From assembly GCF_000429245.1 (NCBI RefSeq), contig NZ_AUBM01000011.1:1-64000 (forward strand): a stretch of DNA of 64,000 nucleotides. The letters run 5' to 3'. The DNA is from Schaalia georgiae DSM 6843 (GTDB taxonomy: Bacteria > Actinomycetota > Actinomycetes > Actinomycetales > Actinomycetaceae). Below are positions 36,344-43,250 of the stretch, piece after piece. Each line of letters starts with the position of its first letter. Positions within the stretch are counted from its first letter, which is position 1. The notes beneath the pieces are model-generated. The model was not told where the DNA came from. It saw nothing but the letters and a program-made list of their open reading frames with translations, and made no database searches. The position numbers were made by a program, and so were the translations under genes.

Positions 36344-37870
36344 ATGAACCCGCACAATCCCCCCGCCCGGCCCCGCACCTACGCGGTGCGCACGCTGGGC
36401 TGCCAGATGAACGAACACGACTCCGAGCGCATGGCCGGCCTGCTGGAGCAGGCCGGACTGCTGCCCGTCGACCAGGTGCCCGAGGCGGCGGCCAGGGCGA
36501 CCGACGCGGGGGACATGGGCGCAGACGTGGTCGTCATCAACACGTGCTCGGTCCGGGAGAACGCAGCGACCCGGCTCTTCGGCAACCTCGGTCAGCTGGC
36601 GGCGGTCAAACGCGACCGCCCCGGGATGCAGATCGCTGTCGGCGGCTGCCTGGCCCAGCAGATGCGCGACGGCATCGTCGAGAGGGCGCCGTGGGTCGAT
36701 GCCGTGTTCGGCACCCACAATATCGACGTGCTGCCCGCGCTGCTGCGCCGCGCCGAGCACAACAGGGCCGCAGCTGTCGAGATCGAGGAATCCCTCAAAG
36801 TGTTCCCCTCAACGCTTCCTACACGCAGGGAGAGCGTGTACGCGGCGTGGGTGTCCATCTCCGTGGGCTGCAACAACACGTGCACCTTCTGCATCGTCCC
36901 CCGCCTGCGCGGAAAGGAACGCGACCGCCGCCCCGGGGAGATCCTGGCGGAGGTCGAGGCGGTCGCCTCGCAGGGAGCCATCGAGGTGACCCTGCTGGGC
37001 CAGAACGTCAACTCCTACGGCGTGGGCTTCGGCGAGCGCCGGGCCTTCGCGGACCTGCTGCGCGCGGTGGGCGGGGTCGAGGGCGTCGAACGGGTGCGCT
37101 TCACGTCCCCGCACCCGGCGGCCTTCACCGACGACGTGATCGACGCCATGGCGACGACGCCCACAGTCATGCCGAGCCTGCACATGCCCCTGCAGTCGGG
37201 GTCGGACAGGGTGCTGCGCCAGATGCGGCGCTCGTACAGGCGCGAGCGGTTCATGGGGATCCTCGAGCGGGTGCGCGCCGCGGTCCCCGCGGCGGCGATC
37301 ACCACGGACATCATCGTCGGCTTCCCCGGCGAGACGGAGGAGGACTTCGCCCAGACGCTGCAGGTCGTCGAGGAGGCGCGTTTCGCCTCGGCGTTCACAT
37401 TCCTCTACTCGCCCAGGCCGGGAACGCCCGCCGCGGACCGCGAGGACCAGGTCCCGGCGGATGTGGCGCTCGAGCGGTACAAGCGCCTCGTCGCACTACA
37501 GGAGCGCATCTGCGCCGAGGACAACGCCGCCCTGGAGGGCGCTGGGGTGGAGGTGCTCGTCTCGGAGGGCGACGGGCGCAAGGACGGCGCCACCCGCCGC
37601 ATCACCGGGCGGGCCCGCGACAACAGGCTGGTCCACGTCGGACTACCGGACTCCCTGTCCGGCGCCGACAGGCCCCGACCTGGCGACATGATCCGGGCGA
37701 GCGTCACCCACGGCGCCCCCCACCACCTGATCGCCGACTCGGGCCTCGAGGGAGGGCTCTTCGAGATCCGGCGCACCCGCGCCGGCGACGCCTGGCAGGC
37801 GGGCCGGGACGCGGCAGAGCCAGGAACCGGGGTCGCCCTCGGCATGCCCACTGTCCGCGTCGGCGGCTGA
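36344..37870 (+). CDS. miaB: tRNA-2-methylthio-N6-dimethylallyladenosine synthase
   Basis: This 508-residue radical-SAM methylthiotransferase modifies A37 of tRNAs. The N-terminal UPF0004 domain has cluster Cys20, Cys68 and Cys102. The radical SAM cluster is Cys176, Cys180 and Cys183 (CNNTCTFC). A TRAM domain sits near residues ~390-460. It acts after MiaA, encoded 2 kb downstream. The ATG at 36344 gives the usual [17 protein letters not shown] start. Confidence 0.96.
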
Positions 37871-38034
37871 GGGGCCGGGGGGCGCTGACGCGCGTTATCG
37901 GCACCAGCGCGCGTTATATCCCCCTCACGGTGTCGACAACCCCCTCACGGTGTCGACAACGCGCGTCCACACTCGCGCCAGAGCCGGTCCCCAGCCCGGC
38001 TTTCCTCTGGGTTGTGTGCCCCTCCCCCGGGGTA
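37871..38034. repeat. short tandem repeats after miaB
   Basis: A 20-bp unit (CCCCTCACGGTGTCGACAAC) occurs twice head-to-tail at 37921-37940 and 37941-37960. Just before it, GCGCGTTAT also occurs twice. No gene is seen. Confidence 0.6.
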
Positions 38035-38136
38035 CGCACACAAGGACCCTAATTTACGTAACACGCGCCGCACACAAGGGCGGAATCAAGCCCTTGTGTG
38101 CGGTGTTGTGTTTCCTAATCCTGTCCCTTGTGTGCG
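38035..38136. repeat. 102-bp four-armed palindromic element, copy 1
   Basis: The terminal inverted repeats CGCACACAAGG and CCTTGTGTGCG bound the element. A perfect central inverted repeat (CGCACACAAGGGC 38069-38081, GCCCTTGTGTGCG 38090-38102, 8-nt loop) lies inside. The motif therefore occurs four times, two direct and two inverted, with a 34-nt period. A second copy of the same length lies inverted at 41859-41960. No coding potential and no clear target duplication is seen. Confidence 0.75.
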
Positions 38137-38430
38137 ACATCTAGAAGGAGTGAGGGGTGGGCCCTCGGGCAATGGCGGCTCCGCGCCCGCGGGCCTTGGA
38201 GGCGCGCCCCAGGGGAACATGAAAGCGCTGTGACTGGAGCCGCAATGCTGTAGCGTTGTCCTATGGCGGTCATCACTGCGAAGTGGTGGTCGGCCTTCGG
38301 GACTGCTCCCGGGAGCGAGGACCGCGCAGAGCCCCCAATATAAATGCGATCCTCCGCCGAACACGTGCGGGGACGCGGCACAGCCGCGCCCCCACACGAG
38401 TCGGGCGAAACAACCGGGAGCAGTCCGCCC
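38137..38430. other. intergenic gap after element copy 1
   Basis: I see no gene, RNA or strong hairpin here. The stretch ends at the stop of a minus-strand YbjN gene. Confidence 0.5.
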
Positions 38431-39141
38431 CTACGCCCCGTCCTCTCGGGCATGTGCGGACGGCTCGGCCCTCTCCTCATCGGCAGCCGGAACCGGTGCG
38501 GGCTCCGCGCCGTCCTCGGCGGCAGCGGGGTCCGGCTCGGAGACGGCCCCGTTCTCGTCGGAAGCGGGGGCGGACTCGGATCCGGCCCCCTCCTCGTCGG
38601 AGGCGCCGCCCGTCCCGTCCCCTCCGGCTTGGGCGAGTTCGCGCGCCAACGACAGGCCGACCACAACGCCGCGACGGATCATCGCGTGGATCTGACGGTC
38701 CGACATGCCCTCGCCGACGAAGAAGCGGCTGGCCGCGACCAGCAGCGGCTGCCCCGCCTCGGGGACCGGGAACACAGTGGGCTGCAGGTGGGCGGCGTTC
38801 CAGTCGTTGGCGATGCGGTCGAGGTCGGCCAGCTCCGCCCCCTGCACCAAGAGGCGCAGCTCGACCTGGGCCCACGGGCAGTCCGCGGGCTCGCGGTGGA
38901 TCTGGAAGTTCCCCTCCTCCACCTGCGTGGCCGCGACGAACTCGGAAGTGGCGACCGGCAGGCCGTCGCCCTCCAGGACGGCGGCGATGCGCTCGATGGT
39001 CACGGGTTGGACTTCGGTGCCCCACTTGAGCGCGAACTCGTCGGGACCCGGGCCCCCCGCTGCCGGGGCGCCCTGCTCGGCTGCCCCGGGGGACGCGGCC
39101 GACTCGTCGCCGTCGAGGGTGAAGGACTTCCACTCAGGCAT
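38431..39141 (-). CDS. YbjN domain protein with acidic tail
   Basis: This 236-residue protein has a central YbjN-like domain (residues ~45-160: TIERIAAVLEGDGLPVA, FFVGEGMSDRQIHAMIRRGV). Its C-terminal tail of ~70 residues is a low-complexity Ala/Glu/Asp/Pro region. YbjN domains resemble type III chaperones and act in several bacteria as stress or regulatory adaptors; the role here is unknown. Its start overlaps the end of the upstream YbjN gene by 8 nt, so the two are co-translated. Confidence 0.75.
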   Translation of the reverse strand: MPEWKSFTLDGDESAASPGAAEQGAPAAGGPGPDEFALKWGTEVQPVTIERIAAVLEGDGLPVATSEFVAATQVEEGNFQIHREPADCPWAQVELRLLVQGAELADLDRIANDWNAAHLQPTVFPVPEAGQPLLVAASRFFVGEGMSDRQIHAMIRRGVVVGLSLARELAQAGGDGTGGASDEEGAGSESAPASDENGAVSEPDPAAAEDGAEPAPVPAADEERAEPSAHAREDGA

Positions 39142-39577
39142 GATCGGCCTCCTTGGCCCACTGGTCGGGGAACGCTATGTCGAGTTGGTTCATCATCGCG
39201 ATGGTGGCCATGAGGAACTGGGAGACCTCGGCGTTGAGCTGCGCGTCTGACGCTCCGACCACCCAGTTGAACGTGTGCTGCATGTGCAGAGTGATCGTCC
39301 CCTGCTCCGTGGGGGTGCTCACCACTTTGGGCAGGTAGGTGGAGGCGTTGAGGTTGCGCACCGCCTCCGCCAACTGGTCGGCGTGCTTCGCGTCGAAGGA
39401 CCGGGGGTAGTCGGCGACGCCCTGGCCGGGATTGTCCTGGGGGACGGCGATCCGCACGGTGCGGGCGGGCAGGATCACGGCGACCTGCTGCTCCGCGACG
39501 AAGGGAATGAGGCCCGTCGCGGCCACGGCTTCGCACACGCGCGGCAGCGTGACGGGAGGAGTGTCTTGTGTGCTCAT
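39134..39577 (-). CDS. YbjN domain protein
   Basis: This 147-residue YbjN-like protein (LPRVCEAVAATGLIPFV and SQFLMATIAMMNQLDIAFP) is the partner and probable paralogue of the downstream gene, and the first of the two in the unit. It is divergent from miaA with a 59-bp gap. Paired YbjN genes may form heterodimers, but that is inference. Confidence 0.75.
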   Translation of the reverse strand: MSTQDTPPVTLPRVCEAVAATGLIPFVAEQQVAVILPARTVRIAVPQDNPGQGVADYPRSFDAKHADQLAEAVRNLNASTYLPKVVSTPTEQGTITLHMQHTFNWVVGASDAQLNAEVSQFLMATIAMMNQLDIAFPDQWAKEADHA

Positions 39578-39636
39578 GCGCCCAGCCTATCGGCACGTGG
39601 GCGTCCGGCGGTAGGACGTGCCCATACACTGGAGCC

Positions 39637-40626
39637 ATGAACCAGCCCGATCCGCGCCCCAGCGACCTCGTCATCGCCGTCGTCGGCCCCACTGCCTCGG
39701 GCAAGTCCGACGTGGCGCTCTCCGTCGCGCAGCGGGCCCCCGCGCGCCTCGGAGCCCGGGGGGCGGGGGAGTTGGTCTCCGCAGATGCGCTGCAGCTCTA
39801 CCGGGGTATGGACATCGGCACCGCGAAGACACCGGAGGGGGAGCGCCGTGGCATCGCCCACCACCAGATCGACGTGCTCGACGTGCGCGACGAGGCGTCC
39901 GTGGCCGCCTACCAGCGCCACGCCCGCGCCGACGTGGAGGGGATCCACGCGCGCGGGGGAGTGGCGGTCGTCGCGGGCGGGTCGGGGCTCTACCAACGCG
40001 CCCTGCTGGATGTCATCGACTTCCCGGGCACGGACCGGCGGGTGCGGGCCCGCCTGGAGGCCGAAGCGGCGGGGCCCCTGGGCGCGCGCGGACTCCACGA
40101 GCGGCTCGCCCGCCTCGACCCCGATTCGGCGAGGCGCATCGACCCCCGTAACGCGCGCCGCATCATCCGCGCTCTGGAGGTCATCGAGGTGACTGGGCGC
40201 CCCTACTCCGCGCACATGCCCCGCCATGAGTTCCACCGCCCTGCCGTCATGGTGGCGCTGCGCCGCGACTGGGAGGAGCTGGACCGGCGCATCGCGGCCC
40301 GCACGCGCGCCATGTTCGACGCGGGCCTGGTCGAGGAAGTGCGCGCCCTCGAGGGGGCGGGGCTGCGCGAGGCGAGGACCGCCTCCCGGGCCACCGGGTA
40401 CGCCCAGGCGCTGGCCGTCATCGACGGGCTCATGGGGGTCGACGAGGCCATCGACTCGGTCGCCCTGGCAACCCGGCAGTTGGCCCGCCGCCAGGTCAAG
40501 TGGTTGCGACCCGATCCGCGGGTCGTGTGGCTGGATGCCGCGGGGGACGCGGAGGACGTGGCGTCCCACGTCCTCGACATCGCCGAGGCGCGGGCCGCCG
40601 GTGGGGTAGCGTTGCACCATGCGTGA
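39637..40626 (+). CDS. miaA: tRNA dimethylallyltransferase
   Basis: This 329-residue enzyme adds a dimethylallyl group to A37 of tRNAs, the substrate for MiaB. The P-loop GPTASGKSD is at residues 17-25. SADALQLYRGMDIGTAK, the DID-like segment DFPGTDRRVR and RNARRIIRALEV follow. TACACT at 39624-39629 lies 7 nt before the ATG, with GGAG between. The 3' end overlaps dapF by 8 nt. Confidence 0.96.
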   Translation: MNQPDPRPSDLVIAVVGPTASGKSDVALSVAQRAPARLGARGAGELVSADALQLYRGMDIGTAKTPEGERRGIAHHQIDVLDVRDEASVAAYQRHARADVEGIHARGGVAVVAGGSGLYQRALLDVIDFPGTDRRVRARLEAEAAGPLGARGLHERLARLDPDSARRIDPRNARRIIRALEVIEVTGRPYSAHMPRHEFHRPAVMVALRRDWEELDRRIAARTRAMFDAGLVEEVRALEGAGLREARTASRATGYAQALAVIDGLMGVDEAIDSVALATRQLARRQVKWLRPDPRVVWLDAAGDAEDVASHVLDIAEARAAGGVALHHA

Positions 40627-41686
40627 CTTCCCCCTGCCGCGCCGCGCCCGCCTGGTCAAGGCCCACGGGTGCGGGAACTCCTTCGTGGTCGCCACCGACG
40701 CCGACGACTCCCACGACCCCGGGGCCGAGGAGGTCCGGGCACTGTGCTCCCAGGCCTTCGGCATCGGCGCCGACGGCTTCATCCGGTGCGTGCGCTCCGG
40801 TGGCGCGTGGTTCATGGACTACCGCAACGCTGACGGGTCGAAGGCCGAGATGTGCGGCAACGGCGTGCGCGTGTTCGTCGACCACCTGCGCCGTGAGGGC
40901 CTGGTCCGCCTCGCCCCGGGCGAGTCCTTGGACGTCCTCACGCGCGGCGGCAAACGGACGGTGGCGCTCGTCGCCGAGGCCGGGGGTGGCGCCGTGGAGG
41001 GCTGTGGTGCGGGTGGCGCCGCGAACGGTGCCGCGGGTGGCGGCGCGGAAGATGGTCCTGCCGAACGTGGTGCTGTAGGCGATTGCGCTGAGAAGGGCGG
41101 CGCTCCGGACGGTGTTGCACACGGTTGCGCTGCGGAAGACAGCGCCCAGTACAGGGTGGACATGGGGCCCGCCTCCAGCCCCGCGCGCGAGACCGTCAAG
41201 GTCTCCGTCCCCGGAATCCCAGGCGTTCTGGGCGGCATCTGGGTGGACATGCCCAACCCCCACACGGTGGTGGCCTTGGACTCCCCGGCTGCTTTGGAGG
41301 GCGCGCAGCTGCCCGCGGTGGACGCGGCGCGCGTCGCCCCGCAGATGCGCCCCGCATACGAGCCGGAGCCCCATGAGGGCACCAACCTGGAACTCGTCGT
41401 CGACCTCACGCGCGAGAGTGATGAGGTGGGGCACCTGCGGATGCGCGTCCTGGAGCGGGGCGTGGGGGAGACCATGGCCTGCGGCACCGGCTGCTGCGCG
41501 GCGGCCGTCGCGACGGCGCTGCGCCGGGGGCCGGGCGCCCCCGCCACGTGGATCGTCGACGTGCCCGGGGGTAGGGTGCGCGTCGATATCGACGGAGTCA
41601 TCGACTGGGACGGGCCCGGGCTCACCGGGGCGCCCGTGTTCCTCACGGGGCCCGCCATGCGCGTGGCCGAAATCGTCATTCCGTAG
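40619..41686 (+). CDS. dapF: diaminopimelate epimerase with low-complexity insertion
   Basis: This 355-residue enzyme interconverts LL- and meso-diaminopimelate. Both catalytic cysteines are present: Cys79 in EMCGNGVRVF and Cys288 in ACGTGCCAAAV. It is ~70 residues longer than usual. Most of the excess is a Gly/Ala-rich stretch at residues ~121-177 between the two halves, in codons ending in T far more often than the rest of the gene. The insert probably forms a flexible loop away from the active site. With dapA and dapB it supplies lysine and cell-wall DAP or lysine. Its start overlaps miaA. Confidence 0.93.
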   Translation: MRDFPLPRRARLVKAHGCGNSFVVATDADDSHDPGAEEVRALCSQAFGIGADGFIRCVRSGGAWFMDYRNADGSKAEMCGNGVRVFVDHLRREGLVRLAPGESLDVLTRGGKRTVALVAEAGGGAVEGCGAGGAANGAAGGGAEDGPAERGAVGDCAEKGGAPDGVAHGCAAEDSAQYRVDMGPASSPARETVKVSVPGIPGVLGGIWVDMPNPHTVVALDSPAALEGAQLPAVDAARVAPQMRPAYEPEPHEGTNLELVVDLTRESDEVGHLRMRVLERGVGETMACGTGCCAAAVATALRRGPGAPATWIVDVPGGRVRVDIDGVIDWDGPGLTGAPVFLTGPAMRVAEIVIP

Positions 41687-42554
41687 GGTCGTTGTCCTTC
41701 CGGATGTGCCGGTGGGTCCAGGGGGAGTGCGGATGGTCCCGCAGGCTGTTGTCGCTCTGAGCGGGCCGGTGCATTCGAGGCCGAGTGGCCGGTTCTGGGA
41801 GGTCGTTGCCAGGTGGGCGCCCCGGGTCCTATCCGAGCGCTCCTTGCGGAGTGCTTCCCGCACACAACGTCGGTGTTTCCGCAACACACAGTCGCACACA
41901 AGGGCGTGATTCTGCCGTTGTGTGCGCCTCGGTGTTGCGTAAATCAGGTCCTTGTGTGCGGTTCTGGCAGATCGGATGGAAGCGGACGGGGTCGTCGTCC
42001 AACAGGTGCGCGCGGAGGAAGGAAATGAGGTTACGCGGTAAATAATATGGTGGGGTGTGCCCCAATTCTGTGGGTGCTGGTGTCGGCTTTCCGTTGAGAA
42101 GTGGTTGGAAACCGGCAGACCGGGAGCTGAATCGGGCGCCGGTGGTGACCCTTGTGTTGGCAACGAAAAGTCCCTTGAACTGGGCTCGTGCTCGTTGGTC
42201 GAAGGGCCCCTGTTCGACCACTGGCGATTCGGTGCGGCGTTTGTGCAGCTCAGCTGCCGTTCGACACGCCGAGGGTCATGGAGCGCCTAGCGCCATCAGG
42301 TGCATTGGGACGGATTCGGCTGGACACGTCAGTCCTCCCCGCCATCAGCGCCGTCAGGGAGTGCCTAGCACCATCAGGTGCATTGAGGTGCCCTTCCGGG
42401 TGTGAGCGTTGGCCTGGGCCTGTCGGTGGCTGCTTGGAGTGGTGGGTGTTGTGTGTTTTGTGGATCTGTTTGTGTTCTGGTGTGTGGGGTGGTTGTGTTC
42501 AGATCGTGGTGGGGGTCTGGTGTTGGGGGTGTGTGGGGGTTACTATCGGGGTGA
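41687..42554. other. 868-bp non-coding gap after dapF
   Basis: No convincing gene is present. It holds the second 102-bp palindromic element (41859-41960) and a 27-bp repeat at 42281-42307 and 42359-42385 (GAGYGCCTAGCRCCATCAGG then TGCATTG, two differences). It also holds the left copy of the long direct repeat that precedes each DUF6318 gene. GC content is visibly lower than in neighbouring genes. Confidence 0.55.
41859..41960. repeat. 102-bp four-armed palindromic element, copy 2
   Basis: It has the same length and layout as copy 1 but lies in opposite orientation. The ends are CGCACACAACG and CCTTGTGTGCG. The central arms are at 41893-41905 and 41914-41926 with one mismatch. Its reverse complement aligns with copy 1 over the whole length, including the AT-rich spacer TGATTTACG / TAATTTACG. 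Confidence 0.75.
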
Positions 42555-42611
42555 GTGGAGCCGCTGTGGTGGTTCGAGGTTCGTCACGAGGATGTGGTGT
42601 TGGTGGGAGTG
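42491..42611. repeat. long direct repeat before DUF6318 gene A
   Basis: About 120 bp here are repeated at 43384-43507 with high identity. They share GGTTGTG, GGTGGGGGTCTGGTG, TGGGGGTGTGTGGGG, then GTTAC-ATCG, GGTGAGTG and CACGAGGATGTGG. The repeat spans the presumed promoter and first codons of both DUF6318 genes, marking a tandem duplication. TACTAT or TACCAT just before each start may be the -10. Confidence 0.7.
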
Positions 42612-43250
42612 TTGCCTGGTGTTGGGCGTTGTTCTGGTGGGCGTTGTCGGTTGGGCGGCGTGTGGTGGGCCGTGTTGGCGCTGTGTGTGTTGGGGGTGTC
42701 GGCGTGCTCGGGCGGCGGTGGTGCGGATGCTGAGGGCCCGGTGATGAGTGGGGATTATTACGTGCAGTCGGATGGGTCGTTGCGGCGGCCCAGTGGTGTG
42801 GGGGAGTTCCCGGTGCCTGATCCTCTGGTGGGCGAGTATTCGGATGCGGGGGCCGAGGCGATGGCCTCGTACTACTTCGAGACGGTGGCTTACGCGTGGA
42901 ATGTGGGGGATCCTCGCGCGTTCACGGATATGGTGGCCACCGGGTGCCAGGCGTGCGCGAACACGGCCAACGACATCACCTCCGTGTATGCCGATGGCGG
43001 GTGGGCCGCCAAGGCGAGGGCGTCGGACTTCCAGGCCTCCGCAGTCGGGCGCGTGACCGACGAGCAGGCCTACGGGGATGAGACGTACGCGGTGGATGTG
43101 TCCTTCAGTGAGCGCACGCCGGATGTGTACACGAACGGGACTTTGGTGCCTGGGGTCGAGCGTGCGCGTGGGGCGCGGGTGCTGGTGGCCTGGGATGGTT
43201 ACTTCTGGCGCGTTGTGGAAGTCGAGGGCCAACCGCAGGAGGGATCATGA
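42555..43250 (+). CDS. DUF6318-type lipoprotein (copy A)
   Basis: This 231-residue exported protein has a basic N-region, a hydrophobic segment, then lipobox LGVSAC (Cys51), so it is probably lipid-anchored at the cell surface. The mature part has YYVQSDGSLRRPSGVGEFP and a conserved AMASYYFETVAYAWNVGDP, then a CQAC pair, as in DUF6318 proteins of Actinomyces-like bacteria. Function unknown. The GTG at 42555 is chosen by alignment with the start of copy B (both share HEDVV); GTGs at 42594/42597 would give a more normal signal peptide. Codon use is T-rich relative to housekeeping neighbours. Confidence 0.72.
   Translation: MEPLWWFEVRHEDVVLVGVLPGVGRCSGGRCRLGGVWWAVLALCVLGVSACSGGGGADAEGPVMSGDYYVQSDGSLRRPSGVGEFPVPDPLVGEYSDAGAEAMASYYFETVAYAWNVGDPRAFTDMVATGCQACANTANDITSVYADGGWAAKARASDFQASAVGRVTDEQAYGDETYAVDVSFSERTPDVYTNGTLVPGVERARGARVLVAWDGYFWRVVEVEGQPQEGS

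Follow-up and report, generated by a model that had tools for sequence, protein, structure and literature searches.

The window, a 64,000-nt stretch of the Schaalia georgiae DSM 6843 genome, contains two copies of a four-armed element that bracket a 3.8-kb segment with four genes (Table 1). The 102-bp length, the coordinates and the four-arm plan given in the original prediction were borne out for both copies, which had also been described as an inverted pair around ybjN-ybjN-miaA-dapF. On orientation that description is ambiguous, since the copies agree at 66/102 sites when compared directly and at 72/102 when inverted, and a repeat alignment gave 74% in either orientation, over 68 and 73 bp. 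Their palindromic build thus leaves an opposite orientation poorly defined. As to the gene labels, checked against Pfam alone at an E value of 0.001, miaA (PF01715) and dapF (PF01678) stood, while both "ybjN" genes lacked a Pfam family. The proposal that the 3.8-kb segment could flip was not upheld: in the sister species Pauljensenia hongkongensis the two elements and the intervening segment are arranged as in the window, and therefore there is no sign of inversion. The window also holds a 20-bp tandem at 37920-37959 (two units of CCCCCTCACGGTGTCGACAA), belonging to a GTCGACAA-core array, and a 33-bp direct repeat, GTCATGGAGCGCCTAGCGCCATCAGGTGCATTG, 91% alike, at 42275-42385.

Table 1. Positions of the two elements and their parts in the window.
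Feature	Position	Strand	Remarks
Copy 1, four-armed element	38035..38136		102 bp; asymmetric class, A side left
Copy 1, arm 1, CGCACACAAGG	38035..38045	+	exact, offset 0
Copy 1, arm 2, CGCACACAAGG	38069..38079	+	exact, offset 34
Copy 1, 8-bp core	38082..38089	-	GGAATCAA on +, TTGATTCC on -
Copy 1, arm 3, CGCACACAAGG	38092..38102	-	exact, offset 57
Copy 1, arm 4, CGCACACAAGG	38126..38136	-	exact, offset 91
Copy 1, A-side flank	38017..38034		weakly conserved, C-rich/GGGTA; probable extent, modelled on the 18 bp in the inserted unit at one clean empty site
Copy 2, four-armed element	41859..41960		102 bp; 13/13 spacer class
Copy 2, arm 1, CGCACACAACG	41859..41869	+	one change relative to CGCACACAAGG
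Copy 2, arm 2, CGCACACAAGG	41893..41903	+	exact
Copy 2, 8-bp core, GTGATTCT	41906..41913	+	
Copy 2, arm 3, CGCACACAACG	41916..41926	-	one change relative to CGCACACAAGG
Copy 2, arm 4, CGCACACAAGG	41950..41960	-	exact

A 102-bp family of strict geometry

The genome of the window (G000; 2.498 Mb in 23 contigs) was compared with those of P. hongkongensis (G021), a third species (G031) and further relatives. Exact arms in G000 number 101 (52 + 49), against 0 + 0 for a reversed-pattern control, and 37 sites display an outer-arm pair spanning exactly 102 bp, with none in the controls. The outer arms of these 37 copies have no mismatch in 26, one in 10, two in none and three in a single copy. All of them place their arms at offsets 0, 34, 57 and 91, and together they enclose 99/101 exact arms, the remaining two beginning 64 and 44 bp before an element. 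Two G000 loci show an extra arm beyond the element.

Counting copies of the consensus in the genome and its relatives, a check suggested in the original prediction, gave 37 of exactly 102 bp in G000, 33 in P. hongkongensis and one, diverged, in the third species. When 98 genomes (G000 and 97 relatives) were searched allowing up to two mismatches, matches were confined to the same three, with 36, 34 and 1, respectively (one of the 34 is a shifted reading of a five-armed G021 copy, hence the 33 counted), the element being absent from the 95 other relatives. An inner-palindrome search pointed to the same three of 35 genus genomes. In a collection of 84,980 species genomes, which may leave out records near the window's own genome, the exact arm-N23-arm pattern was present only in Pauljensenia hongkongensis HKU8; it had no match in viral contigs, and neither did the element in plasmid and phage DNA by BLAST. 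A 9-kb query against phages gave matches over RecA-like recombinase genes, together with one unannotated record over miaB, and none over the element. Occurrences of the arm string in the accessible portions of the literature were judged unrelated, and no description of the family appears in the accessible portions of open-licence articles on Actinobacteria REPs, Schaalia palindromes, Actinomyces MITEs and the Actinomyces hongkongensis genome; the HKU8 genome announcement mentions no repeats.

Partial copies are scarce. A half-element search of the three genomes, tolerating up to three mismatches, returned one lone half in G000 (C6:31120), and in G021 one doubtful half (1134304) and one half adjoining a run of N. 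Six shifted-register readings (L069, L083, L097, L110, L115 and L120) were removed before counting, that at L097 corresponding to a further partial G021 copy beside a run of N, outside the 33. A weight-matrix scan of 1.01 Mb yielded 72 matches scoring 90-170 and none scoring 10-90, on DNA that was partly overlapping and much of it fetched around intact copies, a bias from which the genome-wide half-element search is free. No family with the same geometry and other arm sequences was detected in 1.41 Mb, 400 kb of it a G031 sample, by a scan that skipped any match containing CACACAA or TTGTGTG.

Upon alignment of the 71 copies (37, 33 and 1), the arms are nearly invariant, the inner ones reaching 13 bp around an 8-bp core, TTGATTCC, which occurs in both orientations. 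The 23-bp spacers carry an ATT-type motif and AACAC, and in 62/71 copies the AACAC of one half is displaced by one base, away from the outer arm, relative to that of the other half. By spacer class, 62 copies are asymmetric, seven are 13/13, two were scored 12/13 and none is 14/14, compared with 13.5 of this last class expected if the halves were independent. A CGCACTGGGCGGC-like form substitutes one inner arm in 9/70 copies, and never an outer arm. Flanks of 10-20 bp, C-rich and G-rich, are weakly conserved, and among 14 copies aligned to look for the GTCGACAA-core array, 12 have it on the A side. Short repeats, CACCACTTAG / CTAAGTGGTGC, adjoin the element at L083 and L067, the former being the locus of the single G031 copy, and a further short repeat, GCGCATTGGGGTAGGCAACGG-like, was seen in intergenic DNA of G000 and G021 (L085:5900-6950).

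Genomic context, empty sites and constraint

Gene context was derived from our own simple codon-based caller, which makes errors, with orthologous copies counted twice. Copies are mostly intergenic and favour the 3' ends of genes: for 70 of the 71, the neighbours are convergent in 26 cases, co-directional in 37 and divergent in 7, compared with 21, 91 and 35, respectively, for 147 control gaps from the same loci. Six of the 71 overlap gene calls, which are probably caller errors. At co-directional sites no preference relative to transcription is displayed by polarity (13 same, 17 opposite, n = 30) or by the core (14 same, 23 opposite, n = 37), and the 33 copies are distributed round the G021 chromosome in a random-like manner (spacing CV of 0.86, random mean of 0.96).

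Comparison of empty sites, likewise suggested beforehand, produced one clean case. At G021:987722, the 220 bp (18 + 102 + 100) of P. hongkongensis that include the element correspond to 2 bp in G000, and the flanks of the two genomes are 93 and 95% identical; G031 also lacks the element there, its intergenic DNA not being cleanly alignable. A second, less clean site (G000:C13:8284, L088/L095) involves ~190 bp relative to G021. Thus, the element is present or absent as a unit, in the manner of MITEs, at one clean and one less clean site. The extents of this unit outside the 102 bp differ between the two, and neither of these two sites has a clear target-site duplication, L105 offering no clear candidate and L088 a possible one, GGCGC. 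L085 and L165 gave no clean empty site, owing to excessive divergence of the intergenic DNA or to absence of the region from G021.

Two other loci also differ between the species. At G000:C1:118083-119239 (L061:3001-4157), a gene encoding a DUF559 domain is bracketed by two direct copies that are almost identical; P. hongkongensis has a single copy at this place and lacks such a gene. At L080/L090 (G000:C4:67407, G021:68277), homology ends within 3 bp of the element end, and resumes ~2.8 kb later in G021 and 160 bp later in G000. Considering that G021 is a short-read assembly rated 70% complete, some differences between both genomes may be assembly faults.

Conservation was then evaluated at 16 G000/G021 pairs judged orthologous from flank matches, three of which (L057, L078 and L080) rest on one flank. 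Outer arms differ at 7/352 sites and spacers at 111/736, indicating that the arms are constrained; the core differs at 26/128. Inner arms differ at 20/352 sites (P = 3.6e-6 relative to spacers, all pairs included), 12 of these 20 coming from L074/L100 and L075/L101, two pairs with the alternative inner arm in G000. At four-fold sites, 99/871 differences were counted in the four window genes and 185/2591 in all 11 gene ranges, some of them hand-cut and possibly out of frame. Since detection needs near-intact outer arms, neutral decay was simulated with the same cut-offs, and at 15%, 11% and 7% divergence seven or fewer outer-arm differences were obtained in 0/2000 trials each. The core orientation is flipped in 4/16 pairs, which may be an artefact because the HKU8 genome is a short-read assembly. 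Relative to the G000 copy at the same locus, the single copy of G031 has changes at 5/44 arm and 5/46 spacer sites, and the G021 copy at two and four, respectively.

Pairing of the halves and candidate movers

A protein-bound cruciform was among the possibilities raised in the original prediction. The predicted single-strand DNA fold was stronger than shuffles in all five copies folded (z of -8.2, -5.6, -7.5, -10.1 and -3.7), with 1/200 shuffles folding as well for the copy with z of -3.7 and none for the other four, but compensatory pairing of the two sides does not appear. Inner-arm position 10 (G or C) is concordant in 38/67 cases, with ~36 expected, and discordant in 29/67, the chance level. 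Permutation of six segments per species (37 G000 and 32 G021 copies) indicated better pairing with the own partner for only one segment and in G000 only, namely the inner 11 spacer bases (33/2000 permutations as good, compared with 858/2000 in G021). The outer 12 spacer bases pair worse than shuffled in both genomes (2000/2000 permutations as good or better). Among 70 copies, arms 1/4 share more changes than expected (3 versus 0.23, P = 0.0007), but so do arms 1/3 (3 versus 0.64, P = 0.014) and 1/2 (2 versus 0.31, P = 0.03), with no enrichment for arms 2/3 (P = 0.25), and therefore partner arms are not singled out.

Asymmetric copies keep an internal mismatch at positions 19/85 and 23/81, where both sides carry the identical letter in 52/62 (T.T/A.A) and 44/62 (C.C/G.G) of them, respectively. 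This is compatible with ends of two different types that are read in double-stranded form, or with a folded strand in which mismatches are required; two subfamilies separated by descent could also yield the non-pairing pattern. A plain hairpin, of RNA or DNA, maintained by pairing was rejected because the halves do not covary. The features of a structured RNA family are also missing: apart from the faint signal of a single G000 segment, no covariation was seen, and Rfam gave no match to the element, the six matches up to E 10 in window positions 37000-43000 all being below the gathering score and outside both copies.

Enzyme searches covered Y1_Tnp and PF00589. The REP-associated tyrosine transposase envisaged in the original prediction was not encountered, Y1_Tnp (PF01797) having no match in any of 35 genus genomes, G000, G021 and G031 included, in a search whose control matched in 5/14 known genomes. 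Tyrosine recombinases (PF00589) number two in G000 and one in G021; the one G000 gene examined is Xer-like and is followed by a ParA-like gene. An element separates these two genes (L079:2025-4003), with a G021 element at the matching place; the element follows the Xer-like gene by 34 bp in G000 and its counterpart by 25 bp in G021. No parent insertion sequence with matching ends was seen by exact-arm search in the 23-contig draft, which could hide a larger element.

Relation to known repeats and interpretation

MITEs and ERIC/RUP-type palindromes are short, non-autonomous, palindromic, mostly intergenic and lineage-specific. The element is likewise short, palindromic, mostly intergenic and lineage-specific, but it has a second, inner arm pair at fixed spacing, no parent insertion sequence seen in the assembly and no clear target-site duplication. 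Integron attC sites are imperfect palindromes composed of an inner and an outer pair of sites, the halves being mismatched or offset. All these traits recur here, although the arms are 11-13 bp long and 23 bp apart, the one examined of the two G000 tyrosine recombinases is Xer-like, and no cassette arrays were noticed in passing. The inner 34 bp reproduce the 13-8-13 geometry of loxP/FRT, in which 13-bp arms surround an asymmetric 8-bp core. A REP is a hairpin carrying a conserved short tag; the halves of the present element are instead direct arms, with no tag recognized on inspection.

REPINs, or REP doublets, are described in PMC3116915 as extragenic, hairpin-forming inverted doublets of ~70-110 bp, proposed to be the moving unit, whose repeats are better conserved than the spacer. 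The element is REPIN-like in being a dispersed, extragenic inverted doublet, hairpin-forming in prediction and with repeats better conserved than spacers. It differs in the make-up of each half, a direct pair of arms 34 bp apart, in the great rarity of solitary halves, in a copy number of 37 rather than hundreds, and in that no Y1 gene, and hence no cognate RAYT, was found in the 35 genus genomes. BIMEs, according to PMC2817692, are extragenic, alternate the orientation of their units, contain inter-unit motifs and bind IHF and gyrase. The element similarly is extragenic, with units in alternating orientation and inter-unit motifs, yet its four arms form one fixed unit and not a mosaic of palindromic units, and it lacks Rfam, plasmid or phage matches and has no RAYT found. 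The best reading is that it behaves like a REPIN, BIME or MITE rather than being an established member of any of them; the RAYT test for REPINs failed and no MITE parent was identified.

The view of a mobile or selected, MITE- or REP-like element advanced in the original prediction is in agreement with the 37 and 33 copies, the clean empty site and the arm constraint at shared loci, which suggest that it is both mobile and selected. On balance, we consider it probable that the 102 bp represent the conserved centre of a non-autonomous mobile repeat specific to the P. hongkongensis group, whose arms would be read by a protein. It would insert as a unit of ~190-220 bp, mostly near gene 3' ends, carrying four recognition sites of 11-13 bp (two direct, two inverted) together with ATT-type and AACAC-type spacer motifs. 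A putative protein, possibly oligomeric, would recognize the arms, copies losing arms would not be kept, and the same recognition may drive spread, with a mover presumably encoded in trans. Unlikely, in our estimation, is a REPIN-like palindrome spreading without Y1/RAYT, whose recognition would depend on four fixed arms and on halves made deliberately non-complementary by the conserved internal mismatch and the one-base offset, the mover being a new enzyme or the host Xer or replication machinery.

Other explanations have to be weighed against this non-autonomous mobile repeat. The arms might form a cluster of sites with a host function, binding a nucleoid or topology protein, with spread being incidental; they would then be kept because each site helps the cell, as likened to BIMEs that bind IHF and gyrase. 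Arm constraint at shared loci, the near lack of partial copies and the indifference to the direction of transcription would be consistent with this proposal, which appears nonetheless rather doubtful given its restriction to two species plus one copy, the present/absent polymorphism and a G021 spacing no more regular than random. Distinctly less probable is a folded single-strand site in the REPIN or attC manner, where a recombinase would read a hairpin with built-in mismatches and a one-base offset. Discordance at inner-arm position 10 is at chance level, shared arm changes extend beyond partner arms, descent from two subfamilies could mimic the non-pairing and no Y1 enzyme was found, even though predicted folds exceed shuffles in the five copies folded, the one-base offset recurs in 62/71 copies with the 14/14 class never seen, in both species outer spacers match their own partner less well than the partners of other copies, and the same-letter mismatches are frequent.

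The 13-8-13 geometry, the 4/16 core flips and the vicinity to the Xer-like gene could also be taken as signs of a tyrosine-recombinase site, with an inner 34 bp like loxP/FRT whose core flips by recombination. Nevertheless, conventional exchange swaps flanks rather than inverting an 8-bp core within its site, short-read assembly may have created the flips, the 3.8-kb segment is uninverted in the sister species and only two tyrosine recombinases were found in G000 and one in G021, making this explanation very improbable. Finally, it is scarcely credible that the copies are passive relics of an old expansion, devoid of present role or mobility: such relics would agree with the lack of a mover among the enzymes searched, the lone half-copy and the equal divergence of arms and spacers in the G031 copy, but they are already disfavoured because arms are far better conserved than spacers at G000/G021 loci, and very few partial copies and a polymorphic site also oppose them.

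RAYT transposases account for many short extragenic palindromes. The present family is small enough, at 37 copies in the genome, for every copy to be mapped; being compact, polymorphic, nearly all-or-none and arm-constrained, and coming from a genus in which the search for Y1 transposases gave no match, it would offer a test of another route by which such repeats may spread and be maintained.
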